Assembly (NCBI GenBank): GCA_030613505.1
Contig: JAUWLW010000029.1
Span: forward strand, 1-37,188
Length of the DNA stretch: 37,188 bases
Reading direction: 5' to 3'
From: Candidatus Zixiibacteriota bacterium
GTDB taxonomy: Bacteria; RBG-13-66-14; B26-G2; WVWN01
Shown in pieces: positions 2,618-26,356 of the stretch. Each line of letters starts with the position of its first letter. Within the stretch, counting starts at the first letter, position 1. Both the position numbers and the translations under genes were made by a program. Under the pieces are notes generated by a model. It did not search any database, was not told the DNA's origin, and worked only from the letters and a program-made list of their open reading frames with translations.

Positions 2618-2857
2618 AAAAGGGGTGTCTGGAGGGGGTTATTTACTTCTTGCCGAACACGGTCGATTTTCCTCTCCCCCTATCTCCGGACGGCCCGGTC
2701 TTTGTTTAACCTGCAATTACGAAACCAGCTACGCCGAAAGTACTTCCCGGCGGCCGAGGTCTATCGCAGATTCGGTTCAGCCGCCGGGGAGCGGCTTTTT
2801 ATTTCTGCGCGGGAGGCCGTCAGCGTCGGTCCACCCGTATTTTGAGGAGTGGTTGTT
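2618..2857 (+). ncRNA. structured 5' leader of the kor-hdr operon (attenuator or riboswitch candidate)
   Basis: The span from the predicted start site to korD holds no convincing gene. It can fold into an upstream helix, 2628-2638 with 2676-2680 plus 2685-2690 (11 pairs, one G-U, a TATC bulge). Downstream are two mutually exclusive pairings: 2746-2754 (CCCGGCGGC) with 2780-2788 (GCCGCCGGG), or the terminator stem 2779-2784 with 2791-2796. That is the architecture of a transcription attenuator. I do not recognise the landmarks of TPP, T-box, SAM, cobalamin or other familiar leader classes, so the signal it senses is unknown. Confidence 0.5.
2779..2804 (+). terminator. intrinsic terminator inside the kor leader
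   Basis: AGCCGC (2779-2784) and GCGGCT (2791-2796) form a 6-bp stem with a CGGGGA loop, and uridines continue the transcript (TTTTTATTT). It lies between the promoter and korD on the same strand, so it would end transcription of the operon early unless the 2746-2754 segment captures its 5' arm. Confidence 0.6.
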
Positions 2858-3151
2858 ATGAGGTTCTGGCGGACGCCGCTCGACGCCGACAAGATGAAAA
2901 TCCCGCGCGGCGAGCTGCACATAATCGTGGAGCGGTGTAAGGGATGCGAGTTCTGCGTGGAGTATTGCCCGCGGGACGTCCTGGAGATGAGCGACGAGTT
3001 CAACTCTAAAGGGTACCACCCGCCGAAGGCCGTTAGACCCGAAAATTGCGTGAACTGTGACCTGTGCGAGATGATCTGCCCGGAGTTCGCCATATATTGT
3101 TTAACGGTTGAGGAAGAGCCGGTACCGGTGGAAGGAGGGAAAACGTCGTGA
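2858..3151 (+). CDS. korD: 2-oxoglutarate:ferredoxin oxidoreductase, delta (ferredoxin) subunit
   Basis: A 97-aa two-cluster ferredoxin with motifs CKGCEFCVEYCP and CVNCDLCEMICP, each a CxxCxxCxxxCP ligand set for a [4Fe-4S] cluster. It is the electron-output subunit of the four-subunit KOR type and passes electrons from the TPP site to external ferredoxin or the Hdr modules. I choose the ATG at 2858 because GAGGAG lies 8 nt upstream; the GTG at 2849 is inside that site. First gene of the operon. Its TGA overlaps the GTG start of korA. Confidence 0.9.
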   Translation: MRFWRTPLDADKMKIPRGELHIIVERCKGCEFCVEYCPRDVLEMSDEFNSKGYHPPKAVRPENCVNCDLCEMICPEFAIYCLTVEEEPVPVEGGKTS

Positions 3152-4311
3152 AAGCGGACCCCATCGGCGTTAGGACCGGCACTTTGTACCTCGACGGCGA
3201 CCGCGCCACCGCGGAGGGGGCCATAGCGGCGGGATGTCGTTTCTTCGCCGGCTATCCCATCACGCCTTCCACGGAGTGCGCCGAGCTTATTAGTGAACGT
3301 TTTCCCGAAGTCGGCGGGATTTTCATTCAGATGGAGGACGAGATAGCGTCCATAACCGCCATCATCGGCGCGGCGTGGGGAGGGGCGCGGACCATGACGG
3401 TCACCTCCGGCCCGGGCATCAGCCTGATGATGGAGAACATCGGCCTCGCCATCATGCTCGAGACGCCGTGCGTCGTGGCCAACGTCCAGCGCGGCGGCCC
3501 GTCCACCGGCTTGCCGACGATGGTGGGTCAGGCCGACGTGATGCAGGCGCGCTGGGGCTCGCACGGCGACTACGAGATAATCGCGTACTCGCCGCAGTCG
3601 CCGCAGGAGGCGTTCGACTTCACCATTAAGGCGTTCAACATGGCGGAAAGGTATCGGACGCCGGTAATAGTGCTCCTCGACGAGTGCGTGGGGCATATGG
3701 TGGAGAAAGTGGTCATACCGCCCGCGGATACCATCGAGATCGAGCCCCGCCGTCTGACGGACGCCGCCAAGGACGAGTACCTGCCTTTCGCCTACGGCGA
3801 CGACCTGGTCCCGGATATGGCGATAGCCGGCATGGGGTACCGCTTCCACGTAACGGGCCTGACCCACGACGAGCGCGGCTACCCCGAGATGAGCGTGCGG
3901 TGCCAGGAGTGGCTCGTGCCGCGGCTGGTGGCGAAGATTCGCCAGAACGCCGACGACATCATCGAGTTCGACGAGGAGAATACCGACGACGCGGACGTGG
4001 TGGTGGTCTCGTACGGCATCAGCGCCCGCGTCTCGCGGATGGCCATAGACCTCGCCCGGGAGAAGGGGATAAAGGTGGGCTTTTTGAGGTTGCGCGCCAT
4101 ATGGCCTTTTCCCGAGAAGCGCGTAGCGGAGCTTGCCAAGAAGATAAAGTCGTACGTGGTCGTCGAAATAAACCTGGGTCAGATTTATTACGAAGTCCAA
4201 CGCTGCGCCGCGGGGCGGTGCGAGACGCTCCTGTCTCCTCACGCCGGCGGCGGCGTCCACGACCCGGAGGATATTTTCAAGGTAATCGAAAAGGGGGCCA
4301 AGGTAAAATGA
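3148..4311 (+). CDS. korA: 2-oxoglutarate:ferredoxin oxidoreductase, alpha subunit
   Basis: A 387-aa alpha subunit of the KOR family. The hallmark GYPITPST (about 35-42) binds the TPP/substrate region. 'MEDEIASITAIIGAAWGG', 'TVTSGPG', and a C-terminal domain with 'VVVSYGISARVSRMAIDLAREKGIKVGFLRLRA' (shown here in parts) are the usual core. With beta and gamma it oxidatively decarboxylates a 2-oxoacid to its acyl-CoA, reducing ferredoxin, or runs in reverse. The 2-oxoglutarate assignment follows family resemblance and the aconitase/Icd genes nearby; a branched or aromatic 2-oxoacid cannot be excluded. The GTG start has AGGAGGG upstream and a 4-bp overlap with korD. Confidence 0.9.
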   Translation: MKADPIGVRTGTLYLDGDRATAEGAIAAGCRFFAGYPITPSTECAELISERFPEVGGIFIQMEDEIASITAIIGAAWGGARTMTVTSGPGISLMMENIGLAIMLETPCVVANVQRGGPSTGLPTMVGQADVMQARWGSHGDYEIIAYSPQSPQEAFDFTIKAFNMAERYRTPVIVLLDECVGHMVEKVVIPPADTIEIEPRRLTDAAKDEYLPFAYGDDLVPDMAIAGMGYRFHVTGLTHDERGYPEMSVRCQEWLVPRLVAKIRQNADDIIEFDEENTDDADVVVVSYGISARVSRMAIDLAREKGIKVGFLRLRAIWPFPEKRVAELAKKIKSYVVVEINLGQIYYEVQRCAAGRCETLLSPHAGGGVHDPEDIFKVIEKGAKVK

Positions 4312-5216
4312 GCCCGAAAGGAGTACCGGAAGCGGTCATAGCCGCCGTAAGCTCGGAAGAACACCCCATCGCGCCGTTCTTGCGGATGGACCGCATGCCG
4401 CATATCTGGTGCAGCACCTGCGGCATCGGGACGGCCGTGAAGGCGCTGGTCGCGGCGTTCGAGAAGTTGGAAACGGACCTCGACAAGGTGTCCATCGTCT
4501 CCGGCATCGGCTGCACCGGCCGCGTCGCGGGGTACGTTCGCCTCGACAGCTTCCACACCACCCACGGCCGGCCTATTCCGTTCGCCACCGGCCTGAAGCT
4601 CGCCAACTCGGAGCTGACCGTCATCGTCTTCTCGGGCGACGGCGACCTCTCCGCCATCGGCGGCAACCACTTCATCCACGCCGCGCGCCGCAACATGGAC
4701 CTCAAGGTCATCTGCGTCAACAACTTCATCTACGGCATGACCGGCGGCCAGGCGGCGCCCACCACGCCCCTCACCGCGGTGACGTCCACCACGCCCTACG
4801 GCAACGCCGAGCCGCCGTTCAACCTCTGCCACCTCGCCGCGGCCTGCGGCGCCAACTACGTCGCCCGGTGGACGGCGCTGCACGTCCGGCGTTTGACCAA
4901 GGCCTTCGCGGAGATACTGGTCAAGCCGGGTTTCTGTTTCGTCGAGGTCATAACGCCGTGTTCGACGCTGTACGCGCGCAAGAACCGCCTCGGCACCGGC
5001 CTCGACATAATGAAGTACTACCACGACAATACGGTCATCGAGCACGGCGCGGAGCCGGCCGATACCGACATCGTCTTCGGCGGGCCGATAATTTGCGGCA
5101 AATTCGTAGATCGCGACCGGCCCACGTGGTTGGAGTACCAGGACCAACACCTCGGCGAAGTATTGGGCGATAAGTACTACCGCGGTAAGGTCCTCCAGGG
5201 AGCGGGCGAGCGATGA
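4308..5216 (+). CDS. korB: 2-oxoglutarate:ferredoxin oxidoreductase, beta (TPP) subunit
   Basis: A 302-aa beta subunit. The TPP motif GDGD (about 110-113) ends with NN near 138. Cys in WCSTCGIG (35, 38) and SGIGCTGR (69), plus a later Cys in 'TPCSTLYARKN', are the expected ligands of the internal [4Fe-4S] cluster. The start is the ATG in the ATGA overlap with korA. The same frame stays open upstream to 3684 but only as antisense-like coding inside korA, so the longer version is rejected. It ends in an ATGA overlap with korC. Confidence 0.92.
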   Translation: MSPKGVPEAVIAAVSSEEHPIAPFLRMDRMPHIWCSTCGIGTAVKALVAAFEKLETDLDKVSIVSGIGCTGRVAGYVRLDSFHTTHGRPIPFATGLKLANSELTVIVFSGDGDLSAIGGNHFIHAARRNMDLKVICVNNFIYGMTGGQAAPTTPLTAVTSTTPYGNAEPPFNLCHLAAACGANYVARWTALHVRRLTKAFAEILVKPGFCFVEVITPCSTLYARKNRLGTGLDIMKYYHDNTVIEHGAEPADTDIVFGGPIICGKFVDRDRPTWLEYQDQHLGEVLGDKYYRGKVLQGAGER

Positions 5217-5746
5217 GGCGCGAGATACGGATTACCGGTTTCGGCGGCCAGGGCGTGATACTTTCCGGCGTTATCGTCGGAAAGGCCGCCTCCATTTACG
5301 ACAACAAAAACGCCACCATGTCCCAGGCCTACGGCCCGGAGGCGCGCGGCTCGGCCTGCTCGACGCAGATCCTGGTCGACGACAAAGAGATCCTGTATCC
5401 CTATATCCGGAAATCGGACGTGCTGGTCGCGATGTCGCAGGAGGGCTTTTCCAAGTTCGTCGGCGAGCTGAAGGCCGACGGCGTCCTGATATACGACGAG
5501 GACATGGTCAACCCGGGCGAGGTTAAAAAGGGTATAAAGGTTTATCCCATAAAAGCCCAGCGGATGGCCGAAACCGACCTCGGCCGCAAGATAGTAACGA
5601 ACATCGTGATGTTGGGCTTCTTTACGGCGGTAACGCAAGCCGTCCCCAAAGAGGCGATGGTGGAGGCCATAAAGACCTCGGTGCCGAAGGGGACGATCGA
5701 CCTCAATTTAAAAGCTTTTGACCTCGGTTACGATGCCTTCGAATAA
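5213..5746 (+). CDS. korC: 2-oxoglutarate:ferredoxin oxidoreductase, gamma subunit
   Basis: A 177-aa gamma subunit with the diagnostic [10 protein letters not shown] (about 10-19) and '[18 protein letters not shown]', which in this family contribute to CoA binding. It completes korDABC. The start lies in an ATGA overlap with korB. Its 3' end overlaps the first codons of hdrA by 14 bp, which ties KOR production to the Hdr module. A second, divergent KorC-like protein is encoded at 17821-18363 and lacks the GGQG motif. Confidence 0.92.
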
Positions 5747-8700
5747 GGAAAAGGAAAACGGACCCAAGCCGGAGCCCGCGCTCGAAGCGGAGCCGAGTAA
5801 GGCCAAGGGCGTCCTCGTGTTGGGCGGCGGCATCGCCGGTATCCAGGCGGCACTGGATCTGGCGGATGCGCGCGTGAAGGTCTACCTGGTGGAACGCGGC
5901 GCCAGCATCGGCGGCCGGATGAGCCAGCTAGACAAGACCTTCCCCACGATGGACTGCTCGATATGAATTCTCGGCCCTAAAATGATGGATGTCGGTAGGC
6001 ATCCTAACGTCGAGCTGCTAACGCTTTCGGAATTGGTGGGCCTGCGGGGCGAGCCGGGGGACTTCGTCGCGACGGTGCGGCGCTACCCCCGGTACGTGGA
6101 CGAGGATGAGTGCGTGGGGTGCGGCGATTGCGAGGCGGTGTGCCCCATAGTCGCGCCCAACGTCTACGAACACGGCCTCGGCGCCCGCAAGGCCGTATTC
6201 CGGCCGTTCCCCCAGGCGGTCCCGCCCGTCTATATGATCGACCGCGACGTCTGCCTTAACGAGGAGGCGTTCCTGGCGTGCAGCAACTGCGCCGACGCCT
6301 GCCCCCGCGACGCCATAGACTTCGACCAGCGCGTCCGCAACGTCGACGTGAACGTGGGCGCGGTCATCGTCGCCACCGGCTTCGACGAGTTCGACCCGCG
6401 CGTAATGCGGAATTACGGGTACGGCGTCTACGAGAACGTGATGACCTCGCTCGAGTTCGAGCGGATGCTCAGCGCCTCCGGCCCCACGCAGGGCCGCGTC
6501 GTCCGGCCCACCGACCGCAAGCCGCCCAAGCGCATCGTCTTCGTGCAGTGCGTGGGCGCGCGCGGCGAGGGGGGGCAGCACTTCTGCTCCCGCTTCTGCT
6601 GCATGAACGCCGTCAAGGACGCTATGCTGGCGAAGATCCACGACCCCGACGTCACCTCCATGACCATCCTCTACACCGACCTCCGGGCGTTCGGCAAAGG
6701 GTTCGACCAGTTCGTGGGGCGCTCCCGCGAGGTGGACGAGATTCATTACGTGCGGGGCCGGCCGGCTAAGATCGTGGGCGACGACGACGGCGACCTTATC
6801 GTCTACGCCGAGGACACGCTTGCCGGCGAACAGGTGAAGCTGGAGGCGGACTTGGTCGTGCTCTCGGTGGCGGCGCGCCCCAACGAGACGGCGCGCGACC
6901 TGGCCGAAGCCCTCGGCGTCGAGCTCGACCGCTACGGCTTCTTCCGCAAGCGGGACCCGGATTCCTTCTACCTCGAGACCACGCGCGACGGCGTATACCT
7001 CTGCGGTTCGGCGGGCGGGCCCCAGGTCATCCCGGATTGCGTCGCCCAGGCCTCGGGGGCGGCGGCGCTCGCGGCCAAGCACGTCGCGGCGTGCCGCGTT
7101 CCGGACGAGGCGCTCGAGGTCGAGGCCGTCGATACCTCGGGCGAGCCGCGGGTGGGCGTCTTCGTCTGCCACTGCGGCGCGAACATCGCGGGCCTGTTGG
7201 ACATAGGCAACCTGGTCGAGCACGCCCGCGCCCTCGACGGCGTCGTCTACGCCTCGGACGAGTTGTTCGCCTGTTCCGATACCAGCCAACGCGCCGTACA
7301 GAACGCCATCGCCGAGCACAAACTCAACCGCCTGGTCGTCGCCGCGTGTACGCCGCGGACCCACGAGCCGGTTTTCCGCAAAGCCTGCGAGGCGGTGGGC
7401 CTCAACGCCTACCTTTTCGAAATGGTGAACATCCGCGACCAGTGTTCGTGGGTGCACGTCGGCGCGCCCCAGGCCGCGTTGGCGCGCGCCCGCGACCAGA
7501 TATCCATGGCGGTGGCGCGCGCCCGTCGGCTCGAGCCGCTGCATATGATCGACGTTCCGATGGAACGGGCGGCGCTGGTGGTGGGCGGCGGCATCGCCGG
7601 CCTGCAGGCCGCGCTCGAGATAGCGCGACAGCATTTCAAGACCATATTGGTGGAGAAGACGGATAAGTTGGGCGGCCGCTTGAACAAGCCGTCGTTGACC
7701 AAGCTCTACCCCTCCGGCCGCGACGCCGAGAAGCTCATCGACGAGAAGATAGTTCAGCTGGAGGAGGCCGGCGTCGAGGTGATGCTCAATACCGAGGTGG
7801 CGCGGGTCGACGGCTTCGTCGGCAACTTCGACGTCGAGCTCGCCGACGCCTCCGGCAAGAAGAAGGGTGCTACCAAGAAGGTCCGCGCCGGCGCCATCGT
7901 CCTCGCCACCGGCGCCGACTTATACGAACCCAAGGGCGAATACGGTTACGGCGAATACCCCAACGTAATTACGATTCTTGAGCTGGAGCAGAACTTCGCC
8001 GCCCACGACGGCCGCGCCGTCGTCGACGGCAAACAGCCCGAGAACGTCGCTTTCATCCAATGCGTCGGCTCGCGGTGCGAGGACGGCAACCCCGGCTGCT
8101 CGCGCTACTGCTGCCCGTCGGCGATAAAGCAGGCGCTGGCGCTGCGCGAATACGGCGCCAACGTGACGGTCTTCTACAAAGACATCCGGACCGTGAGCGA
8201 CGGCGCCGAGGAGATGTACCGCAACGCGCGCGGCAAAGGCGTCCTCTTCGTAAAGGTCGCCGAGGAAGAGCGGCCGGAAGTCGTGGGGGCCAAGGCGGCG
8301 GAGGCGGTGGAGGCCTACGACGTCCTGCTCAGAGCGCGAGTGCGCGCGCCGGCGGACCTCGTCGTCCTCTCCACCGGCATGGTCCCGCGCGAGCCGGACA
8401 CGACCATCCTGCAATCCATATTCAAAATACCGCGCGGCGACGACAAGTTCCTCATGGAGCGCCACCCCGAGCTCGGCCCGGTGGAGACGACGACCGACGG
8501 CGTCTTCATCGTCGGCTGCCTCCAGGCGCCCAAGGACATAGCGGACTCGCTGTCGCAGGCGTCGGCCGCCGCGGCCAAAGTCGCCCGGCTGCTGGCGCGG
8601 GACAGCGTGAAGCTCGAGCCCACCATAGCCGAGGTCAACGAGGACCTCTGCCGCGGCTGCGGCCAGTGCGCCGAAATCTGCGAGTTCAACGCGCCCGAGC

Positions 8701-8873
8701 TCGTCCAGCTCGAGTCCGGGGTTTACGTCGCGCGCATCAACGAGGCGTTGTGCAAGGGGTGCGGGACGTGCGCCGTGTGGTGCCCCACCGGCGCCGTAAT
8801 GGCCCGCCACTTCACCGACCTGCAGATCCACACCATGCTCGAGACCGCCCTGCAAGGGGAAAAGGGTAGATGA
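5733..8873 (+). CDS. hdrA: tandem double HdrA-like flavoprotein with selenocysteine (U78)
   Basis: Two HdrA modules in one chain of 1046 residues if the TGA at 5964-5966 is read as selenocysteine. Module 1: FAD site GGGIAG (31-36), then DCSI-U-ILGPKM (74-84), where HdrA homologues have Cys. Two [4Fe-4S] sites follow at about 127-137 and 174-190, then the [11 protein letters not shown] region. Module 2 starts near 474 with [14 protein letters not shown], has a second GGGIAG (618-623) but no Cys/Sec at the equivalent of U78. Two ferredoxin motifs ([22 protein letters not shown]) close the protein. The size and the MvhD and HdrD-like genes that follow resemble BamE of the class II benzoyl-CoA reductase complex, which includes no KOR. 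The downstream part has no ribosome site of its own, so readthrough is needed. Likely role: FAD electron bifurcation or confurcation. Confidence 0.88.
5964..6004 (+). promoter_or_regulatory. UGA-Sec codon and SECIS-like hairpin of the first hdrA
   Basis: The TGA (5964-5966) is followed after 20 nt by GGATGTC (5987-5993), loop GGTA (5994-5997) and GGCATCC (5998-6004), a 7-bp stem with one G-U. The distance to UGA and a G at the start of the loop fit the known bacterial SECIS pattern, which binds SelB. The same 23-nt block recurs in the second hdrA at the same spacing. Confidence 0.7.
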
Positions 8874-9544
8874 CGCCGGCCAAGGGTAAAACGGCTGCGA
8901 CCGAAGAGAAGAGTAAGGCCAAGGCCAAGGCGTCGCCCGAGAAGCCGCGCGCCGCGGCGAAGGGCGCGACGAAGCGGCCTGCCGGGAAGTCGTCGGCCGG
9001 CGGGGCGAAGGCCAAGGTTAAAGCCAAGAAAACCGCCGCTCCCCGCAAACCCCGTAAAACCGAACCCAAGGTCCGCGAAGACTTCACGCCGCGCATCGTC
9101 GTCTTCGCCTGCAACTGGTGCTCGTACGCCGGCGCCGATACCGCCGGCATCTCGCGCATACAGTATTCGCCCCATTTCAGGATAATCCGGGTGATGTGTT
9201 CGGGGCGGGTGCATCCGGCGTTCGTGTTGCGGGCGTTCGAGCTCGGCGCCGACGGCGTACTGGTTTCGGGGTGCCACTTCGGCGACTGCCACTACATCTT
9301 CGGCAACGAGCGCGCCGTAGAGCAGTTTGAGAAGACGAAGGCTCTCCTCAAAATACTGGGCTTGGAGGAGGGGCGCATACGGCTGGAGTGGATCAGCGCC
9401 GCGGAGGGCGTCAAATTCGGCCGCGTCATCGACGAATTCGTGGAGCAGGTCCGGGCGCTGGGGCCGTCGACGTTGGCGCCGCCGGGACGCGAGCTGCCGC
9501 GCGAGGCCGAGGCGTTCGCCGACGCCGCGGCCTTGGCCAAATAA
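8870..9544 (+). CDS. mvhD: MvhD/FlxD/BamF-type iron-sulfur protein with a Lys/Ala-rich N-terminal tail
   Basis: 224 aa. Residues from about 75 on are a complete MvhD-type domain: 'FACNWCSYAGAD' (C81, C84), 'VMCSGRVHPAFV', 'GADGVLVSGCHFGDCHY', 'RLEWISAAEG'. In methanogens and in Flx/Hdr complexes this protein passes electrons from the donor enzyme to HdrA. The first 68 residues are low-complexity, rich in Lys, Ala and Pro (KAKAKASPEKPRAAAK), like a histone H1 tail, and are not part of the family. It has Cys where some relatives have Sec. The start lies in an ATGA overlap with hdrA; the next gene follows after 11 bp. Confidence 0.88.
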   Translation: MTPAKGKTAATEEKSKAKAKASPEKPRAAAKGATKRPAGKSSAGGAKAKVKAKKTAAPRKPRKTEPKVREDFTPRIVVFACNWCSYAGADTAGISRIQYSPHFRIIRVMCSGRVHPAFVLRAFELGADGVLVSGCHFGDCHYIFGNERAVEQFEKTKALLKILGLEEGRIRLEWISAAEGVKFGRVIDEFVEQVRALGPSTLAPPGRELPREAEAFADAAALAK

Positions 9545-9555
9545 TATAGAGCGTT

Positions 9556-10737
9556 ATGGATAAGACCGCTACCGTTGACGAGCGCGCGTTGAAGGATGCC
9601 AACGCCTTCCTGTGCCTGGAGTGCGGCAAGTGCACGTCGACGTGCGTCGTCGCGCGCTACAACCGCTCGTACTCGCCCCGGCGGCTCATCAGCCAGGCGC
9701 TGGCCGGAGGGCGGCTGCCGACGTCTCAGGAACTCTCGATATGCCTGACGTGTATGGCGTGCGACGCGCGTTGCCCCTCCGGCGTCCGCTTTGTCGACCT
9801 CATCCGCGAGCTGCGGCGGGCGACGTACGGCGCCGAGTTCGCCGGCAACTGCAGCCACGGCGGCGCGATGCAGTCGCTGATGAAGCTTATGACCGCGGCG
9901 GAGTTGAATCAGGACCGCCTGGCCTGGGTCACGGACGACCTCAAGACGGCCGACGAGGGTGACGTGGCGTTCTTCGTGGGGTGCGCGCCGTACTTCGACG
10001 CCTTCTTCACCGAGCTCGAGGTGGATACCCTCGCCGGCGTCAAGGGCGCGGTCAAGGTCATCAACGCGCTCGGCATAGCGCCGGTAGTCCTGCCGGACGA
10101 GCGGTGCTGCGGCCACGACCTTCTGTGGGGCGGCGACGTCGAGCACTTCGAGATTCTCGCCCGCCGCAACGTCGAGCTCCTGCGGGCCAAAGGGGTTAAG
10201 ACCGTAGTCTTCAATTGCCCGGAGTGCTACTATACGTTCAAGGCCGATTACGCGGACGTCGTGGGGGCGCTGCCGTTTGAGGTCAAACACCTGAGCGAGT
10301 TCCTGGCGGAGCGCGCCGGGGAGTTAAATTTCGTCGACGACGAGGGGGAGAAGGTCACGTTCCAGGACCCGTGCCGGCTGGCGCGTTTCGCCGGCGTCGT
10401 CGAGCCGCCGCGGGAAGTTCTGACCGCCGCCGGCGTCGAGCTGGCGGAGATGCCGCGTTCGGGGAAGGGCGCGGTATGTTGCGCCGGCAACGGCTGGCTC
10501 AACTGCGACCGCTTCTCCAAGGAGGTCCAGCTCGAGCGGTTGCGCGAGGCCCGCGCCACGGGCGCGACGACGCTCGTCACGGCCTGCCCCAAGTGCGAAA
10601 TCCACTTCCGCTGCGCCATGAAGGACCCCAACCTGGGCGACGAGATAAAGATGGAGATACGCGACCTCGCCTCGACGGTGGCGTCGCGTTTGGAAAATAA
10701 AAAAGCGAAACCCAAAGGCAAAGAAACCGAGGAATAA
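9556..10737 (+). CDS. HdrD-like (HdrC-HdrB fusion) iron-sulfur protein
   Basis: 393 aa. The N-terminal ferredoxin region has C20-C23-C26-C30 and C63-C66-C69-C73. Two CCG domains follow: 'FVGCAPYF ... ERCCGHD ... NCPECYYTF' and 'DPCRLARF ... VCCAGNG ... ACPKCEIHF'. CCG domains carry the non-cubane [4Fe-4S] clusters that reduce disulfides in HdrB, or otherwise pass on electrons. Length and order match HdrD and the BamD subunit of class II benzoyl-CoA reductase. It follows the double HdrA and MvhD directly, so the three probably form one complex. The C-terminus is Lys-rich. Substrate unknown. Confidence 0.85.
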   Translation: MDKTATVDERALKDANAFLCLECGKCTSTCVVARYNRSYSPRRLISQALAGGRLPTSQELSICLTCMACDARCPSGVRFVDLIRELRRATYGAEFAGNCSHGGAMQSLMKLMTAAELNQDRLAWVTDDLKTADEGDVAFFVGCAPYFDAFFTELEVDTLAGVKGAVKVINALGIAPVVLPDERCCGHDLLWGGDVEHFEILARRNVELLRAKGVKTVVFNCPECYYTFKADYADVVGALPFEVKHLSEFLAERAGELNFVDDEGEKVTFQDPCRLARFAGVVEPPREVLTAAGVELAEMPRSGKGAVCCAGNGWLNCDRFSKEVQLERLREARATGATTLVTACPKCEIHFRCAMKDPNLGDEIKMEIRDLASTVASRLENKKAKPKGKETEE

Positions 10738-10767
10738 CCCCAACCCCTGCCGAAGGGGGTGAAGATA

Positions 10768-13278
10768 ATGTCCAATGAGGAAAAAGCGGCGGTCGCGACG
10801 GGCGAAGAACTCCGCATCGGCGTCTTCGTGTGCGACTGCGGCTCGAACATCGCCGGCACCGTCGATACCGCGGCGGTAACCGAGTACGCGGAGACGTTGC
10901 CGAACGTCGTCGCCGTCGTCCGCAACCGCTACACCTGCGCCGACCCGGGCCAGAACGAAATCAAAAAGGCGATCCGCGAGTACGACCTGAACCGCGTCGT
11001 CGTGGCCTCCTGCACGCCGCTCATGCACGAGCCGACCTTCCGCGCCTGCGTCGCGGGCGAGGGCCTGAACCCGTACCTGATGGAGATGGCCAACCTGCGC
11101 GAGCACTGCTCCTGGGTGCACGGGAACGACAAAGAGGGCGCGACGGCTAAGGCCAAGGACCTGGTCAAGAGCGCGGTGGCGCGGGCGGCGCAGTTGCAAG
11201 CGCGCGAGGAGACGCGCGTCCCGGTTACGCAGGCCGCGCTCGTCGTGGGCGGCGGCGTCGCCGGCATCCAGACCTCGCTCGACCTGGCGGAAGCCGGGTA
11301 CCAGGTCTACCTGGTAGAGAAGGAGCCGTCCATCGGCGGCATCATGGCCGCGCTCGACAAGACGTACCCCACGATGGACTGCTCGATATGAATACTCGGT
11401 CCCAAGATGATGGATGTCGGTAGGCATCCCAGGATCGAGTTGATGGCTTACAGCGAGGTCGAAGAGGTCGACGGGTACGTCGGCAACTTCAAGGTCAAGG
11501 TGCGCAAGAAGGCGCGCTACGTCCGCGAGGAGGATTGCAACTCCTGCGCCGAGTGTGCCGAGGTTTGCCCGGTCGTCGTCCCGGACGAGTTCCAGATGGG
11601 CCTGTCGTCGCGCAAGGCGGTTTACCTGCCGTTCCCGCAGGCGGTACCCGCGTCGTACATAATCGACATGGAAGCCTGTTTGGGAACCAACCCCATCGCC
11701 TGCGGCAAGTGCGAGGAGGCTTGCGAGAAGGTCTGCATCGACTACGACATGAAGGACGAGATCTTCGAGCTGGAGGTGGGCGTGGTCGTCGTCGCCACCG
11801 GCATGGACGTCTACGACCCCACCGAGTTGGACGAGTACTGCTACACGCGCTACGACAACGTCATCACGTCTATGGAATTCGAGCGGTTGATCTGCGCCGG
11901 CGGCGCGACGGAGGGCCACTTCGTCCGCCCCTCGGACCGCGACGTGCCCCAGCGCATCGCGTTCATACAGTGCGTGGGCTCGCGCAACAACGCCGGCGAC
12001 AAGGGTAACCGCTACTGCTCCAACATATGCTGCATGAACACCGTCAAGGATACGCTGCTGCTGCGCGACCACTACCCCGATTGCGAGTGTACTGTTTTCT
12101 ACGTGGACATCCGCGCCTTCGGCAAAGGTTTCGAGGACCTCTACATGCGTTCGCGGGAGGAGGGCGTAAAGTACATCCGCGGCCTGCCGGGCGAAATCCG
12201 CCAGGACCCGGAGACCAAGAACCTCTTCCTCACCGCCGAGAACACGCTCACCGGCGAGGTGCGGGAGTACGAGTTCGACGCTGTCGTCCTCTCGGTGGGC
12301 GTCATCCCGCGGCGGGACAGCGCCCTTGTAAAGAAGCTCCTCTCGCTGTCCACCACCGGCGACGGCTTCTACATGGAGGCCCACCCCAAGCTCAAGCCGG
12401 TGGATACGCCGACGCGCGGCGTTTACATCTGCGGCTGCTCGGAATCGCCCAAGGACGTCAAGGACTCGGTGACGCAAGCTTCCGCCGCTGCGGCCCGCGC
12501 CATGACCATTCTCAACGCCGGCCACGTAACGGTGGAGGCCATTACCGCCGCCATCGACCCGGCCCTCTGCACCGGCTGCGGCCTGTGCGCCAAGGTGTGC
12601 CCCTTCAACGCCGTTGAAGTGGACAAGGAGAAAAAGACCGCCTGGGTGGTCTCGGCGATGTGTATGGGGTGCGGCAACTGCGGCGCGACGTGCAACCAGG
12701 GCGCGGTGACGATGGGCCACTTCACCGACGACCAGTACTACGCCCAGATAGACGCGCTGCTCGACGAAGACGCGGCCGACAAAGTGTTCACCTTCGCCTG
12801 CAACTGGTGCTCGTACGCCGGCGCCGACAACGCCGGCATCTCGCGCATCCAGTACCCGGCCTCGCCGCGCCTGGTCCGGACGATGTGCTCCGCCCGCGTT
12901 ACGGAGGACTTCGTCCTCTACGCGTTCGTGAAGGGCGCGCCCGTCGTGCTGGTCTCCGGCTGCCACTTCGCCGACTGCCACTACATCGACGCCAACCGCC
13001 AGACCGTCAAGCGCGTCTACCGGCTGTGGGACAAGCTGGAGAAGCTGGGCATCCGTCCGGAACGGCTGCAGCTGGAATGGATAAGCGCCGCCGAGGGCCA
13101 GAAGTTCGCCCGCGTCATGCGCGGCCTGGAGGAGATGCGCCAGCAGGTCACGGCCGAAGAAGTCGAGCATACCAAAAAGGTCCTGGCCGAGGAGTGGGAG
13201 AAGAAGCTCGCGCGCGAGGCCAAGCGCAAGAAGAAAGCGGAAGCGGATGAGTCAAGAGACGAAGTTCAAGTGTCTTAA
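10768..13278 (+). CDS. hdrA: HdrA-MvhD fusion flavoprotein with selenocysteine (U208)
   Basis: 836 residues if the TGA at 11389-11391 is read as Sec. Order: N-terminal HdrA domain (VFVCDCGSNIAG, about 18-29), FAD site GGGVAGIQ, DCSI-U-ILGPKM (204-214), ferredoxin clusters near 257-267 and 304-323, the CSNICCMNTVK region, two C-terminal ferredoxin motifs (about 601-642), then a full MvhD domain (673-788: FACNWCSYAGAD ... SGCHFADCHY ... LEWISAAEG). A basic coiled tail ends it. Fusing MvhD to HdrA fixes the electron entry site to the flavin. The ATG at 10768 has AGGGGG upstream and is preferred to the GTG at 10759. It is co-transcribed with hdrC and hdrB and probably forms a HdrABC-type complex with them. 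Confidence 0.9.
11389..11429 (+). promoter_or_regulatory. UGA-Sec codon and SECIS-like hairpin of the second hdrA
   Basis: The TGA (11389-11391), a 20-nt spacer, then GGATGTC (11412-11418), loop GGTA (11419-11422) and GGCATCC (11423-11429). It is identical in sequence and spacing to the element in the first hdrA, while the spacer differs only at synonymous sites. Confidence 0.7.
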
Positions 13279-13405
13279 ATGCGGCCACGAGTACGTCGAG
13301 AAGTACGCGCCCGACGACGACATCGAACGGGCGTGCCCCAAGTGCCACTCCAATAGCGTCCGCCCCGAGAAGCCGAAGAAGGCCGATGTCGCCGAAAAAA
13401 AATAA
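13247..13405 (+). CDS. small zinc-ribbon protein between hdrA-mvhD and hdrC
   Basis: A 52-aa frame starting ATG AGT CAA GAG, inside the 3' end of the preceding gene (+1 frame), and ending 20 bp inside hdrC. The protein reads MSQETKFKCLKCGHEYVEKY, then a short acidic stretch, then CPKCHSNSVRPEK and a Lys-rich tail. CLKC and CPKC form a CxxC-x17-CxxC zinc or iron (rubredoxin-like) knuckle. The overlap on both sides and the intact Cys pairs argue that it is real. It may be an assembly factor or a small electron-transfer or structural subunit of the Hdr complex. No named family is claimed. Confidence 0.7.
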   Translation: MSQETKFKCLKCGHEYVEKYAPDDDIERACPKCHSNSVRPEKPKKADVAEKK

Positions 13406-13892
13406 CGAGAAAAAAGGCCGCGGCCCGACGGTAACGCTCGACTTCGAGTTCAAGAAGCGGCTCGAGAAAATCGTCGACGGCGCGCTGGTCAATTATTGCT
13501 ACCAGTGCGGCGCCTGCGTCGGCGACTGCCCCAGCACGCGGTACGTACCGGAATTTAACCCGCGGGAGATAATGCTCAAGGTCCTCTACGGCTTCGCCGA
13601 GGAGCTGGTGGGGCCGGCCTCGCCGGTGTGGTACTGCACCAACTGCTACAATTGCTACGAGCGCTGTCCGCAGAACGTCAAGCCGGTGGAGATAATCATC
13701 GCCATCAAGAACCTCATGGCGCGGCGCGGCATCTACCCGGAGAAGGCGCAAGTGGGCGACCTGGTCGAAATGGTTCTGGAGACCGGCCGGACCGCGCCGG
13801 TGACGGCGATGACCAAGAAGCTCCGCGAGGAGTTGGGGCTGCCGCCGCTCGAGGCCGTCGACACCGACGAGCTGAAGAAGATATTGGAGTAA
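13386..13892 (+). CDS. hdrC: heterodisulfide reductase subunit C-like ferredoxin
   Basis: 168 aa with two [4Fe-4S] motifs, CYQCGACVGDCP (C38, C41, C44, C48) and CTNCYNCYERCP (C84, C87, C90, C94), typical of HdrC. It carries electrons between HdrA and HdrB. The C-terminal third is helical and charged and probably contacts HdrB. The start ATG lies inside the end of the zinc-ribbon gene, and hdrB follows after 18 bp. In organisms without coenzymes M and B, HdrABC-like complexes use other acceptors, so the true substrate is open. Confidence 0.9.
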   Translation: MSPKKNNEKKGRGPTVTLDFEFKKRLEKIVDGALVNYCYQCGACVGDCPSTRYVPEFNPREIMLKVLYGFAEELVGPASPVWYCTNCYNCYERCPQNVKPVEIIIAIKNLMARRGIYPEKAQVGDLVEMVLETGRTAPVTAMTKKLREELGLPPLEAVDTDELKKILE

Positions 13893-13910
13893 CGCGGTCG
13901 GGCGAGACTC

Positions 13911-14810
13911 ATGACGGACGCCGAACCTAAAAAATTCGCCTTCTTCCCCGGGTGTCTGATACCGGTGCGGTACCCGCAGATGGAGGCCGCGATCCGCAAG
14001 ACGCTGCCCAAGCTCGGCGTCGAGATCGTCGACCTCCCCGGCTTCACCTGCTGCCCGGACCCGATCTATTTCAAATCGTACGACAAGCTGGCGTGGCTCA
14101 CGGTCGCGGCGCGCAACCTGGCCGTCGCGGAGGAGGCGGGCCTCAACCTATTCACCATCTGCTCGGGCTGCACCGCGACGCTGTCGGAGACGTACCAGCA
14201 ACTCAACGCCAACAAGAACTTGAAGGAAGAGGTCAACCAGCGGCTGGCGCGCGTGGGCAAGGAGTACCGGGGGACGTCGACGGTGCGGCACGTCGCGACG
14301 GTCATCCGCGACGAGGTGGGCGTCGAAGCGGTGGCGGCGTCGGTGGTGCGGCCGCTGGAGGATTTGCGGGTGGCCATCCACTACGGCTGCCACCTCCTAA
14401 AGCCGTCGCACATTATGAAGGTCGACGACCCCGACGACCCCCATATATTGGACGACCTGGTCGCGGCCCTAGGCGCTACGCCCGTCCGCCACGACGAATG
14501 GATCCTGTGCTGCGGCAAGGCCTGCAAGCACGAGGAGGCGCCGTCGGAGATGATGTACGAGCTGCTGAAGTCGGTGGCCGCGGCGGAGGCGGACGTTTTG
14601 GGCGTCGTGTGCCCGTCGTGCTTCACCGAGTTCGACCTGGGCCAGCTCCGCCTCGCGCGGCAGCACGACGACGAGAGCCTCAAGACGCCCGCGGTTTACT
14701 ACTTCCAGTTATTGGGTCTGGCGCAGGGTTTAACGCTGGAGGAAGTGGGCCTCCACCGGCACAAAGTCAAGGCGCCGGCGCTGGAGAAGTACGCCGCCGC
14801 CGCGGTGTAG
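13911..14810 (+). CDS. hdrB: heterodisulfide reductase subunit B-like protein
   Basis: 299 aa with two CCG domains. The first is C15-x31-C47C48-x35-C84xxC87; the second is C160-x39-C200C201-x32-C234xxC237. This is the CX(31-39)CCX(32-38)CXXC pattern that ligates the two non-cubane clusters at the HdrB active site, so the site looks complete. It is the last gene of the kor-hdr operon and is followed by a terminator 22 bp after the stop. The start has only a weak ribosome site (GGGCGAGACTC before ATG). Confidence 0.92.
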   Translation: MTDAEPKKFAFFPGCLIPVRYPQMEAAIRKTLPKLGVEIVDLPGFTCCPDPIYFKSYDKLAWLTVAARNLAVAEEAGLNLFTICSGCTATLSETYQQLNANKNLKEEVNQRLARVGKEYRGTSTVRHVATVIRDEVGVEAVAASVVRPLEDLRVAIHYGCHLLKPSHIMKVDDPDDPHILDDLVAALGATPVRHDEWILCCGKACKHEEAPSEMMYELLKSVAAAEADVLGVVCPSCFTEFDLGQLRLARQHDDESLKTPAVYYFQLLGLAQGLTLEEVGLHRHKVKAPALEKYAAAAV

Positions 14811-18573: not shown

Positions 18574-19821
18574 CTAACTTATGTTCTCGGCGATGCGCGC
18601 CGCGTACTCGCTGGTCTTCACCTTGCGCGCGCCCTCCATCTGGCGGGCGAGGTCGTACGTAACTACTTTCTCTTGTATCGTCTTGGCCATCGCCGCCACG
18701 ACGGCGTCCGCCGCCTCCTGCCACCCCAGATACTCCAACATCATAACGCCCGATAAGATTAAAGAAGAGGGGTTTACTTTATCCTGGCCGGCGTACTTGG
18801 GTGCCGTGCCGTGGGTGGCCTCGAACAGCGCCACGAAGTCGCCCATGTTCGCGCCCGGCGCCATCCCCAGGCCGCCCACCTGGGCCGCGGCGGCGTCCGA
18901 CAGGTAGTCGCCGTTGAGGTTGGGCGTAACCACGACGCTGTACTCGTCAGGCCGCAGCAAGATCTGTTGGAACATGGAGTCGGCGATGCGGTCCTTCACC
19001 ACTATCTTACCCGCGGGGACTTTCCCGTCGTATTTCTCCCACAGCTCGGCCTCGGTGACGGTCTCGTCGCCGAACTCTTCGCGGGCGAGCTCGTAGCCCC
19101 AGTCTTTGAACGCGCCCTCGGTGAACTTCATGATGTTGCCCTTGTGGACGAAGGTGACGCTGGGCAGCTTCCGGTCGCCGGCGTAGCGGAGGGCCTTGCG
19201 GGCGATGTTCTTGCTTCCTGTTATGCTGATGGGTTTGACGCCCACGCCGGAGTCGAGCCTGATGTTGCAGCCCATCTCCTCGTTCATGAACGCCAGCACC
19301 TTGGCGACCTCCGGCGTCCCCTCGCGCCACTCGATGCCGGCGTATACGTCCTCAGTGTTCTCGCGGAATATCACGACGTTCAGTTTCTCGGGGTGTTTGA
19401 CGGGGCTGGGCACGCCCTGTATCCACCGCACGGGCCGCACGCAAGCGTACAGATCGAGCTTTTGGCGCATCGTCACGTTGAGGCTGCGATAGCCGCCGCC
19501 CACCGGCGTCGTCAGCGGCCCTTTGATGGCGACGACGAATTCCGGTATGGCCCGGAGCGTGTCGTCGGGCATAACGACGCCCTCGCCGTAGACGCGTTGG
19601 GCCTTGTCGCCCGCGAATATTTCCATCCATACGATCCTGCGAGCGCCGCCGTACTTCTTCTCCGCCGCGGCGTCCACGACGCGTCGCGTCGCGGCCCAGA
19701 TGTCGGGGCCGATGCCGTCGCCCTCGATGAACGAGATTATGGGGTCGTCGGGCACGCGCAGCGCGTCGCCCGCGATTTCGATTTTGTGGCCTTCTTCGGG
19801 AACCGTAACCTTTTCGAACAT
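18574..19821 (-). CDS. icd: isocitrate dehydrogenase (NADP-type)
   Basis: 415 aa, close to the 416 of the E. coli enzyme. It oxidatively decarboxylates isocitrate to 2-oxoglutarate. Visible motifs: IEGDGIGPD (32-40), [18 protein letters not shown] (the substrate loop with the serine phosphorylated in E. coli), [15 protein letters not shown], and [31 protein letters not shown] keeps the Lys-Tyr pair that favours NADP over NAD. The start at 19821 has AGGAGAGG upstream; the frame extends further upstream only as a shadow of aconitase. It lies 8 bp after the aconitase gene and is followed by a terminator. Confidence 0.95.
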
Positions 19822-19829
19822 CGCCTCTC

Positions 19830-21761
19830 CTACGATTGGGAACGTTGGTAGTTGAGCAAACCGCCGGCCTTGACGATCGCGATTTGCCGCTCGCTCAAGT
19901 TGTGGGCCGCTTCGAGAGAATAACCTTTCGTTTCGTTTTTTACCGTGAGCCGTTTTTCGGAGCGCAGCTTTTGGTGGAGGTTTTCCAGCTTGAGCCGGTC
20001 GCCGGCTTCCAGTTTTTCGTAGTCGCCGGCGTCGCGGAACGTTAGCGGCAGGATGCCGAAGTTGACCAGGTTCGCGGCGTGGATGCGCTCGAAGGATTTC
20101 GCCAGGACCGTTTTTACGCCCAGGTACATCGGGCACAGCGCGGCGTGCTCCCGGCTCGAGCCCTGGCCGTAGCTCTCGCCGGCTACGACGACGTTATGCA
20201 GTCCCTGCGCCGCGTTTTCCTTCGCCCGCGCGGCGAAGGTCGCGTCCACGCCCTCGAAGACGAATTGAGAGTAGGCCTCCACGTTGGAGCGGTATTTCAG
20301 CCGCGGCCCGGCCGGCATTATATGGTCGGTCGTGATCTTATCGCCCACCTTTAACGTCACCTCGGCCTCCAGTTCGTCGGGAAGCGGGACGTTGGTCGGC
20401 GGCTCGCCGATGTTGGGGCCGCGGACGATCTCGGCGTCGGGGTCGTGGACGTGGGAGATCAGGTCGTCGTCTACGGTGAACGTCGCAGGGACCGCTACGC
20501 GGGGATAAGGGATGCCGGCGTCGCGGGGGTCGAGGAATTCGCCTTTCCACGCCGCGACGGCCGCCGTCTCCGGGCTGGTCAAGTAAACCAGGGCGGACAT
20601 TGTGCCGGAGCGGCCCTTGAAGTTGCGATTGCTGGTCCTGACGGATACGGCCTCCGAAGCCGGCGCGTGGCCCATGCCGATGCAGAAGCCGCAAGCCGCC
20701 TCGGCGACGCGGGCGCCGGCGGCCACGAGCTTGGCGAGGTGGCCGTCGTCGGCGATCATACGCAGTACCTGCTTCGACCCGGGCGCGACGACGAAACTTA
20801 CGTTGGGTGCTATCGCCTTGGCGTCCAATATCCCGGCGACGGTCGCCAAGTCCTTGTACGACGAGTTGGTGCACGAGCCGATGCAAACCTGGTCCACCTT
20901 CAAACCCGCGATCTCGCGCACCGGGACGACGTTGTCGGGGCTGTGCGGCTGCGCTACCATAGGCTCGACGGCGGAGAGGTCGATTTCGACGACGCGGTCG
21001 TATTCGGCGTCGGCGTCCGCGGCCAGCTCCTGCCATACGTCGCCGCGCCCCTGCGCCTCGAGGAAAGCCTTGGCGACGCGGTCGGAGGGGAAGACGGACG
21101 TCGTAACGCCGAGCTCGGCGCCCATGTTGGTGATGGTCGCGCGCTCCGGTACCGACAGCGTCTCGGCGCCCGGGCCGAAGTACTCCATTACGGTGCCGAC
21201 GTTTCCCTTGGTAGTCAGCATCTTAAGAAGGGTTAATATAACGTCTTTGGCGGCAACCCAATCGTTCAACTCGCCGGTCAATTTTACTCCCACCACGCGG
21301 GGGTACGTCAGCCAGAAAGGTCCGCCGGTCATCGCCACGGCCACGTCGAGGCCGCCGGCGCCGATAGAGATCATGCCGAAGCCGCCGCCGGTGGGCGTGT
21401 GGCTGTCCGAGCCCAGGAGCGTTTTGCCCGGCACGCCGAAGCGCTCGAGATGGACCTGGTGACAGATGCCGTTGCCCGCGCGCGAGAAGTATAAGCCGTA
21501 TTTCTCCGCTATGCTTTGGAGGTAGCGGTGGTCGTCCGCGTTCTCGAAACCCATCTGGAGGGTGTTGTGGTCGACGTAGCTGACCGAGAGCTCGGTCTTG
21601 ACTTCCGGTACGGCCATGGCTTCGAGCTGGAGGTACGCCATCGTGCCGGTGGCGTCCTGCGTCAGCGTTTGGTCTATTTTTATGGCGACCTGTTCGCCCG
21701 GGCGCGGCTCGCCCTCGAGCAGGTGAGCGCCCAAAATCTTTTCGGTTAACGTCTTCGCCAT
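19830..21761 (-). CDS. acn: aconitate hydratase (short, about 640-aa type)
   Basis: 643 aa, the shorter aconitase form found in many anaerobes. It interconverts citrate and isocitrate. The cluster ligands are C297 (in CIGSCTNSS) and C357/C360 (in CGFCIGMG). [11 protein letters not shown] (117-127) and the C-terminal swivel domain with [15 protein letters not shown] are intact. It lies immediately upstream of icd in the same operon. A homoaconitase or isopropylmalate isomerase role is unlikely, since those usually have separate large and small subunits, and the neighbours are citrate synthase and icd. Confidence 0.92.
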
Positions 21762-24955: not shown

Positions 24956-26356
24956 TTAGGCGAAGAGGTCGGGCATGTGCTGCTTGGCTTGCTCGAGCAT
25001 CTCTTCGCTCGATATGGCCGTCGTCCTGCGGGCCGCGTACTGCTCTTCCACCCATTTTGCGATGCCCTGGATCCCCGGGTGACGTTTGTCTATTTGTTTG
25101 TCGGCCTCCAGGCCGAGGTTCTGGTTGAGCCACAGCGCGATGCCGGCCACGCCCGACTTGTCCGTGACCGAGATGCCCAGCGGCCGTCCCAGGATGTCGC
25201 CGGTGTCGAAGATGTTGTAAATTTCCTCGTTCTTGATTACGCCGTCGGCGTGGATTCCGGCACGGGTTACGTTGAATTCGCTCCCGACGAACGGGTAATT
25301 GGACGGCACGGGCCAACCCATACTCTTCTCGAAGTATTCGCCGATCTCTTTAATCGCCGTTAGGTCCATGCCGTCGGTGTGACCCTTGAGGCTCGCGTAT
25401 TTGACGCAGAGCGCCTCCAGCGGCGAGTTGCCGGTCCGCTCGCCGATGCCCAACAACGAGCAGTTGGCGGCGGCGCAGCCGTAGAGCCACGCGGCCACCG
25501 GGTTCGCCAGGACGAGGTGGAAGTCGTTGTGGCCGTGGAACTCGAGCTGATCGTGCGGGATCCCGAGTTCGGTGCGCAAGTAGTATACCATCTTCGGTAC
25601 GCTGCGGGGTAGCGCGGCCTCGGCCCAGGGTAGGCCGTAGCCCATCGTGTCGCAGACGCGGATCTTGATCTTCATGCCGCTTTCTTCGGAGAACCGCATG
25701 AGCCGTTCCGCGAACGGGACCACCGTTCCCCAGAAGTCGGCCCGGGTCATGTCCTCGAAGTGGCACCGGATGGCCTTGAGGCCGGCCTCGGCCGCGGCGT
25801 TGATTACCTTCATGAAGTCTTCCAGTACTTGCGCCCGCGTCTTCTTGAACTTCATGAAAATGTGGTAGTCGGAAATGGACGTCAGGATGCCGGTCTCCTC
25901 CAGCCCCACTTGTTTGACCAACTCGAAGTCCGCCGGCACGGCGCGGATCCAACCCGTTATCTCCGGGTACTCGTAGCCGAGTTCCTGGCATTTCTCCAAC
26001 GCCTCCCGGTCCTTTTCGCTGTACAGGAAGAACTCGGACTGGCGCACGATGCCTTTGGGGCCGCCCAGTTTGTGGAGCAGGTCGTAGACGTGCACGACGT
26101 CGTCGACGGTGTACGGCGGCCGCGCCTGCTGGCCGTCGCGGAAGGTCGTATCCGTGACCCAGATATCCTCCGCCGGCGCGAGCGGGACCGTCTTCCCGTC
26201 GAACATCGTCTTGGGAATTTCAGAATACGGGAACTGGTCGCGGAAGAGGTTGGGTTCGTCGACGTCGACCAGGGGGTGCTCCGCCTCGCCTTTCGCCGGT
26301 TCGGCCTTCACCTGTTGGAGCCAAGGGGCTTTCCAGTCGTGATTTTTCGCCGCCAT
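24956..26356 (-). CDS. (Re)-citrate synthase-like HMGL-family enzyme
   Basis: 466 aa, related to homocitrate and isopropylmalate synthases. TDTTFRDGQQARPPYT (68-83) and GGPKGIVRQSEFFLYS are the features I associate with the (Re)-citrate synthases of clostridia and Dehalococcoides. The metal motif HGHND and 'GIGERTGNSPLEAL' are present. The reaction would be acetyl-CoA plus oxaloacetate to citrate. The aconitase and icd genes downstream on the same strand support citrate rather than homocitrate. No leucine-type regulatory domain is seen. The ribosome site GGAGG lies 5 nt before the ATG. Confidence 0.75.
   Translation of the reverse strand: MAAKNHDWKAPWLQQVKAEPAKGEAEHPLVDVDEPNLFRDQFPYSEIPKTMFDGKTVPLAPAEDIWVTDTTFRDGQQARPPYTVDDVVHVYDLLHKLGGPKGIVRQSEFFLYSEKDREALEKCQELGYEYPEITGWIRAVPADFELVKQVGLEETGILTSISDYHIFMKFKKTRAQVLEDFMKVINAAAEAGLKAIRCHFEDMTRADFWGTVVPFAERLMRFSEESGMKIKIRVCDTMGYGLPWAEAALPRSVPKMVYYLRTELGIPHDQLEFHGHNDFHLVLANPVAAWLYGCAAANCSLLGIGERTGNSPLEALCVKYASLKGHTDGMDLTAIKEIGEYFEKSMGWPVPSNYPFVGSEFNVTRAGIHADGVIKNEEIYNIFDTGDILGRPLGISVTDKSGVAGIALWLNQNLGLEADKQIDKRHPGIQGIAKWVEEQYAARRTTAISSEEMLEQAKQHMPDLFA

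Follow-up and report, generated by a model that had tools for sequence, protein, structure and literature searches.

A survey of HdrA names type II and type Ia as classes, and its accessible text (PMC12054007) gives the pair E356/K409 as the mark of bifurcating HdrA flavins; that text brings up selenocysteine (Sec) solely to explain why hdrA genes are missed, and describes no Sec in type II HdrA. A study of 2006 (PMC1794560) reported Sec-HdrA in bacteria as well as Sec-containing hdrA-hdrA fusions. A swinging-arm model and transfer from MvhD to the flavin adenine dinucleotide (FAD) site termed FAD' have also been described (PMC12350162). Here we analyze hdrAA, a gene for a fused double HdrA with an internal UGA, located in a 37,188-nt stretch of DNA from Candidatus Zixiibacteriota bacterium (contig JAUWLW010000029.1; this whole stretch is hereafter the window), where it follows the genes of a 2-oxoacid:acceptor oxidoreductase (KOR), probably a 2-oxoglutarate:ferredoxin oxidoreductase. 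The best explanation of the locus as a whole, to which we assign a probability of roughly 0.8, is that hdrAA encodes a selenoprotein belonging to a KOR-wired, flavin-based bifurcation/confurcation complex.

Translation of the frame 5733-8873 gave a single internal TGA, at codon 78, in the context DCSI-UGA-ILGPKM, in agreement with a preliminary description of the locus made from sequence; the terminal TGA overlaps the ATG of the downstream mvhD-like gene. In an alignment to the HdrA structure 5odc, the residues around position 78 fall on PTNDCSICILAPKM, Sec78 occupying the position of Cys197, and in other relatives the equivalent residue is Cys encoded by TGC or TGT, as the same description had expected of Cys homologues. 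Its statement that UGA is a normal stop here was also confirmed, as this codon ends 8 of the 27 window genes checked, hdrAA included. At the in-frame UGA sites compared across relatives, the next base is A in 97 of 97.

The TGA is retained in two congeneric genomes, whose proteins are 90% and 93% identical to that of the window. Codons downstream of the UGA in congener L103 showed 134 synonymous versus 61 non-synonymous differences from the window, and the excess of synonymous changes was found in both congeners. We scanned 84,980 species genomes with patterns that avoid the Sec site and retained 79 loci from the 481 relatives detected; L024 and L055, in which module 1 is apparently absent, were set aside as assembly gaps, both being from the same series of chromosomes among metagenome-assembled genomes (MAGs) and L024 having a run of N at the module 1 break. 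KOR-linked double HdrAs formed one clade (support 100) with TGA in 36/36 members, the Cys forms being confined to the other clade of the tree; thus conservation of the TGA, in the congeners and in the 36 KOR-linked homologues, is far beyond chance. The preliminary description had considered a Sec double HdrA behind KOR to be the unusual part, a claim that has to be revised, since this arrangement is not specific to one genome and is the rule within the clade, which includes Zixiibacteriota, Planctomycetota, Acidobacteriota, Latescibacterota, Myxococcota, Eiseniibacteriota and Verrucomicrobiota in addition to the window's own lineage. The presence of TGA throughout the clade and across phyla, with no Cys version among the 36, suggests that Sec is required there and not optional.

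A predicted hairpin starts 23 nt past the first base of the UGA (Table 1), and we compared it, as a candidate bacterial selenocysteine insertion sequence (bSECIS), over the 70 UGA sites of the KOR clade, which comprise those of hdrAA, of hdrA2 (a second HdrA gene of the same operon) and of two HdrL-type genes. The hairpin core GATGYCGGTNGRCATC was present at a constant distance from the UGA in 70/70 sites. The one variable stem pair was C-G in 50, T-A in 12, T-G in 8 and C-A in 0 (Fisher 1.2e-8, a value that is only indicative given that the sequences are related). Hairpin codons are frozen: Asp is GAT, Gly is GGT and His is CAT in all 70 (background 0.32, 0.17 and 0.29, respectively). Among 47 distinct sequences 95.7% of cells pair, versus 26-57% with slid partners, and 13 cells are double-changed. 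Mean minimum free energy after the site was -11.6 in UGA genes versus -3.2 in Cys genes, and a hairpin of the KOR-clade type was not found in 14 Cys homologues. An Rfam gathering scan of the window returned no match, which is uninformative for a short bacterial SECIS. The hairpin of the sister clade (UGA sites of L058-L096) differs, reading CTGGTCG-AGGT-CGGCCGG with a similar GGU loop and lying about 6 nt nearer the UGA; its different sequence and position indicate that the SECIS has apparently moved, or been re-invented, inside one gene family.

The preliminary description counted one Sec-HdrA, correctly as to hdrAA, and overlooked another at hdrA2, where an in-frame UGA (11389-11391) is again followed by this hairpin. 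This gene passes the curated HdrA2 model (NF040770, Table 1), and TGA was found at its site in 32 of the 32 HdrA2 genes covered in these loci.

The check that had been proposed, a search of the source genome (2.86 Mb in 100 contigs, about 93% complete) for selA, selB, selC and selD, left the Sec reading standing: full-length SelB is encoded on contig C63, and SelA (403 bits, cut-off 268), SelD (344 bits, cut-off 125) and tRNA-Sec (66.7 bits, gathering score 47) were all detected. Among 35 other genomes carrying the locus, selB was above its curated cut-off in 29. The marks of a bacterial selenoprotein, namely a UGA at a Cys site, a SECIS hairpin and selA, selB, selD and tRNA-Sec in the genome, are therefore found together for hdrAA, whose UGA is, as far as sequence can tell, close to certain to be a true Sec codon. 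The SelD gene itself (G000 C23:20762-21685, minus strand) has an in-frame TGA and is probably a selenocysteine SelD.

HdrAA matched HdrA chains with E values down to 4e-207 (phmmer), and the HdrA2 and HdrA models with E=0 and 2.6e-239, in three stretches and below the single-HdrA cut-offs. Its score with NF040770 was 1055.9 bits in three pieces (cut-off 1100), thus making it a fused relative and not an HdrA2. Structure comparison of the predicted model (predicted local distance difference test 84.2, predicted template modelling score 0.86) placed residues 24-454 on 8rwn_A 151-575 (Z 35.0, root-mean-square deviation 1.6, 418 residues, 48% identity) and residues 470-1042 on the full chain 5odh_A 2-652 (Z 34.1, root-mean-square deviation 4.1, 562 residues aligned); together with the phmmer matches this bears out the tandem double HdrA reading of the preliminary description. 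The chain contains one each of the N-terminal cluster domain, the inserted ferredoxin, the C-terminal ferredoxin and the CxxU motif, and two flavin cores. E356 and K409 of 5odc map to E243/K295 in module 1, both invariant, and to E752/K799 in module 2, conserved in at least 90% and invariant, respectively, so HdrAA combines two thioredoxin-reductase-like domains per chain with equivalents of this pair in both, as type II HdrA does.

The module 2 residue aligned with Sec78 is Lys, and that module indeed lacks Cys or Sec at the site. It had further been proposed that the two flavins do different jobs; the restriction of Sec and the inserted ferredoxin to module 1 makes this plausible, although both modules keep the bifurcation residues. 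HdrAA is a single-chain, asymmetric version of the methanogen HdrA:HdrA' pair, in which the swinging arm would belong to the second half, and FAD' to the first, where Sec and the ferredoxin exit are located. Sec78, in its CxxU motif beside the module 1 flavin core, probably tunes electron transfer, either as a cluster ligand or as part of a redox-active CxxU pair; no description of cluster ligands around Cys197/Sec78 was found in the accessible papers.

From 2849 to 14810 the genes lie on one strand in the order KorD, KorA, KorB, KorC, HdrAA, MvhD, HdrD-like, HdrA2-MvhD, HdrC, HdrB. All four KOR subunits (alpha, beta, gamma and delta) are present, beta being identified by synteny and identity only, and HdrA, HdrB, HdrC and MvhD are co-encoded, as expected of a flavin-based bifurcating Hdr complex. 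The set recurs across the KOR clade, with korC or hdrCB sometimes at the other end, and KOR directly adjoins hdrAA in every intact member with flank; at least eight bacterial phyla share a conserved KorDABC-HdrAA(Sec)-MvhD-HdrD-HdrA2(Sec)-HdrCB operon. The alpha subunit passes the 2-oxoacid model NF006412 and not the 2-oxoglutarate-specific PRK09627, the delta subunit remaining below cut-off. A search of the source genome gave no 2-oxoglutarate dehydrogenase E1, and KOR is therefore probably the link between 2-oxoglutarate and succinyl-CoA in this organism; the genome does encode a citrate synthase, and genes for aconitase and NADP-isocitrate dehydrogenase are located downstream of the operon.

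In the mechanism that we propose, SelB with Sec-tRNA would decode the UGA at 5964 as Sec, directed by the hairpin at 5987-6004, and would do the same for the hdrA2 UGA at 11389 by means of its own hairpin. Module 1 would act as the flavin half with Sec78 and the inserted ferredoxin, and the N- and C-terminal cluster domains of module 2 would form the swinging arm with MvhD. The KOR subunits, HdrAA, MvhD, HdrD, HdrA2, HdrC and HdrB would assemble as a soluble complex in which low-potential electrons are exchanged directly between KOR and HdrAA; the flavins of HdrAA and HdrA2 would split or merge electrons with a second, mid- or high-potential couple acting at the MvhD and HdrB/HdrD sites. What the sequences show directly is the reading frame, the conserved UGA and hairpin, the Sec machinery, the domains and the conserved operon; we infer the formation of this complex, its direction, the second electron partner and the role of Sec. 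A stronger version, which we advance tentatively and hold to be possible rather than probable, is that KOR itself is bifurcating: the operon would specify a soluble complex with two bifurcating-type flavin sites in HdrAA, a third in HdrA2 and a pair of obligatory selenocysteines, coupling 2-oxoglutarate/succinyl-CoA interconversion directly to two different electron partners. If true, many uncultured anaerobic phyla would use selenium-dependent electron bifurcation to run a step of the tricarboxylic acid (TCA) cycle in either direction.

When UGA is taken as a stop, gene finders report an open reading frame of 963 aa beginning at ATG 5982, and the UGA of hdrAA might be a real stop followed by restart at that ATG, or the gene a pseudogene, or the TGA a sequencing error. 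The 963-aa product would, however, lack the FAD-binding GGGIAG motif (aa 31-36), in which G31, G33 and G36 are invariant in homologues; TGA is retained in 36/36 KOR-linked genes from at least eight phyla and in the two congeners with their synonymous excess downstream, and a recurrent error at one codon ahead of a frozen hairpin is not credible. Restart, pseudogene and frameshift were thus rejected on comparative grounds, and we consider this explanation very improbable. An in-frame UGA by itself does not discriminate Sec from another amino acid (Trp or Gly, by a code change) or from random read-through, but homologues carry Cys at this site rather than Trp or Gly, a SECIS hairpin follows the codon, and the genome encodes SelA, SelB, SelD and tRNA-Sec. 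A change in the genetic code was rejected because UGA serves as the stop of 8/27 neighboring genes, hdrAA among them, leaving such decoding a practically negligible chance.

Regarding the wiring, HdrAA could be merely co-regulated with KOR and receive electrons from free ferredoxin, passing them for example to NAD(P)H via a GltD-bearing HdrL or to a disulfide via HdrB. An NAD(P)H-type HdrL stands between korC and hdrAA in congener L018, sister-clade HdrAA occurs without KOR, and the operon has no dedicated dehydrogenase for the second donor, all of which favor this alternative; nevertheless KOR adjoins hdrAA directly in every intact member with flank, korC and hdrAA overlap in the window, and related methanogen Hdr complexes bind partner enzymes directly (PMC12350162), so we regard mere co-regulation as unlikely. 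Several points weigh against the KOR-wired selenoprotein reading itself. That KOR and HdrAA interact is suggested by gene adjacency by itself, and the substrate specificity of KOR is taken from family models, with the KorD score below cut-off. No selB match above cut-off was found in 6 of the 35 carrier genomes; two of these have matches just below it in SelB-length frames, and four are possibly incomplete MAGs. The genomes with KOR-linked copies are MAGs, and confidence of the structural model is low at residues 63-76, directly before Sec78. Moreover, the two hairpins of the window are not unusually stable when compared with synonymous recoding, in which the codon pool was drawn from the rest of each gene (p 0.14 and 0.16); the SECIS evidence thus rests on the cross-species pattern.

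Table 1. Features of the hdrAA operon in the window.
Feature	Position	Strand	Basis or remarks
korD-like ferredoxin subunit	2849..3151	+	OGOR_delta E 1.4e-19, below cut-off; synteny
korA, 2-oxoacid:acceptor oxidoreductase alpha	3148..4311	+	NF006412 558 bits, cut-off 411
korB, beta subunit	4308..5216	+	open frame; orthologues 63-91% identical between korA and korC
korC, gamma subunit	5213..5746	+	14-nt overlap with hdrAA start
hdrAA, fused double HdrA (type II HdrA), selenoprotein, 1,046 aa	5733..8873	+	translation, HdrA2/HdrA models, HdrA chains, fold
HdrAA module 1, aa 24-454: thioredoxin-reductase-like FAD core with inserted ferredoxin, Sec78, E243/K295	5802..7094	+	fold, invariant columns
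UGA codon 78 of hdrAA, read as selenocysteine	5964..5966	+	aligns with Cys197 of 5odc HdrA
bSECIS hairpin of hdrAA	5987..6004	+	GGATGTC-GGTA-GGCATCC, GGU in apical loop
HdrA N-terminal Fe-S domain between modules, aa 470-605	7140..7547	+	invariant C479, C481, C514, C539
HdrAA module 2, aa 606-960: FAD core, no Sec motif or inserted ferredoxin, E752/K799	7548..8612	+	
C-terminal two-cluster ferredoxin domain, aa 961-1042	8613..8858	+	
mvhD-like [2Fe-2S] subunit	8870..9544	+	FlpD 8e-52
hdrD/glpC-like subunit, HdrC-type clusters and two CCG domains	9556..10737	+	
hdrA2, HdrA fused to MvhD (type Ia), second selenoprotein of operon, 839 aa	10759..13278	+	NF040770 1151.8 bits, cut-off 1100
UGA codon 211 of hdrA2, read as selenocysteine	11389..11391	+	
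bSECIS hairpin of hdrA2	11412..11429	+	sequence as in hdrAA
hdrC-like subunit	13386..13892	+	TIGR03290 6.9e-33, below cut-off
hdrB-like subunit, CCG domains	13911..14810	+	TIGR03288 7.6e-86, below cut-off

The additional gene of congener L018 (6752-11311, plus strand) encodes a third Sec-HdrA, a 1,519-aa protein of HdrL type with a GltD-like domain in module 1; its C-terminal part is 84% identical to HdrAA of the window, which suggests duplication or gene conversion. The source genome encodes a 1,502-aa HdrL-like protein (G000 C17:2280-6680, minus strand) with no TGA and with CSMC at the Sec site. On the minus strand of the window, 27502-29997 encodes an 831-aa GlcD-type FAD oxidase fused to an HdrD/GlpC-type Fe-S part, its neighbors being a LarA-type racemase (30041-31282) and a GcvH-like protein (31317-31745). 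Also on the minus strand, an HMGL-family synthase (24956-26356) scored below all specific cut-offs, the best match being homocitrate synthase; with aconitase, isocitrate dehydrogenase and KOR close by, it may act as a Re-citrate synthase or as a homocitrate/citramalate enzyme. The NADP-isocitrate dehydrogenase seems to be extended by about 105 aa, overlapping some 300 nt of the aconitase frame (18574-20136 and 19830-21761, minus strand), and its true start is probably downstream.

Within the window's phylum, hdrAA of this kind was found only in the same genus among 14 genomes, a distribution that would fit horizontal acquisition. Public records label one congener as Coatesbacteria and another as Zixiibacteriota, making the phylum name uncertain. 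Members of the sister clade (L058-L096) are mostly Thermodesulfobacteriota and Myxococcota by record names. A single sequence from Asgard archaea (L067) falls within the wider family tree, whose sampling did not extend to archaeal type II HdrA.

Literature searches for KOR with HdrA returned no account of a KOR operon with two Sec-HdrA, which is weak evidence as most subscription papers were outside their coverage; Sec-HdrA, fused Sec-HdrA and the type II and Ia classes are known, and what we found no account of is the conserved KOR operon with two Sec-HdrA. This operon is a concrete candidate for how a TCA-cycle step is wired to electron bifurcation in these anaerobes. Annotation with UGA as a stop cuts both hdrAA and hdrA2 at the UGA, and the capacity is therefore under-reported. 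Because the symmetry of the methanogen dimer is lost in the single-chain HdrA:HdrA' layout, it becomes possible to test what each flavin and Sec do.

Among the described systems, archaeal type II HdrA of methane metabolism, in the accessible text of the survey, resembles HdrAA in having two thioredoxin-reductase-like flavin domains per chain, both with E356/K409 equivalents, and in its gene clusters, which include MvhD and HdrBC and in some cases a further HdrA and HdrD; those clusters, however, carry FdhB and an inactive molybdopterin protein, unlike the HdrAA operon with its KOR (PMC12054007). Syntrophobacter fumaroxidans similarly has Sec-HdrA in a fused double gene beside a GlpC/HdrD-like gene and MvhD (FrhD), although these genes are linked to an F420-reducing-type hydrogenase (frhA, frhG), not to KOR (PMC1794560). 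Their order, HdrD-HdrAA-MvhD, is matched by the sister clade L058-L096. BamE of Desulfococcus multivorans is likewise HdrA-like. It is a Sec protein of class II benzoyl-CoA reductase, part of a large enzyme complex which serves benzoyl-CoA reduction, unlike the KOR-linked HdrAA (PMC5109826). Desulfobacterium autotrophicum HRM2 also has several Sec-HdrA per genome, most with an mvhD neighbor, and its HdrL type with a GltD insert matches the extra gene of L018; its Sec HdrA and HdrL are linked to hydrogenase, formate dehydrogenase or sulfite reductase, and KOR linkage is not described in the accessible part of that report (PMC2702500).

The methanogen HdrABC-MvhAGD and Elp-Hdr complexes (5ODC, 8RWN; PMC12350162) share with this system the HdrA fold and homologous MvhD, HdrB and HdrC. 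In methanogens, two identical HdrA subunits with one flavin each form a dimer, and 5odc has Cys at the Sec site, whereas HdrAA is made of two unlike modules fused in one chain and, unlike the methanogen complexes, probably has KOR as its partner enzyme.

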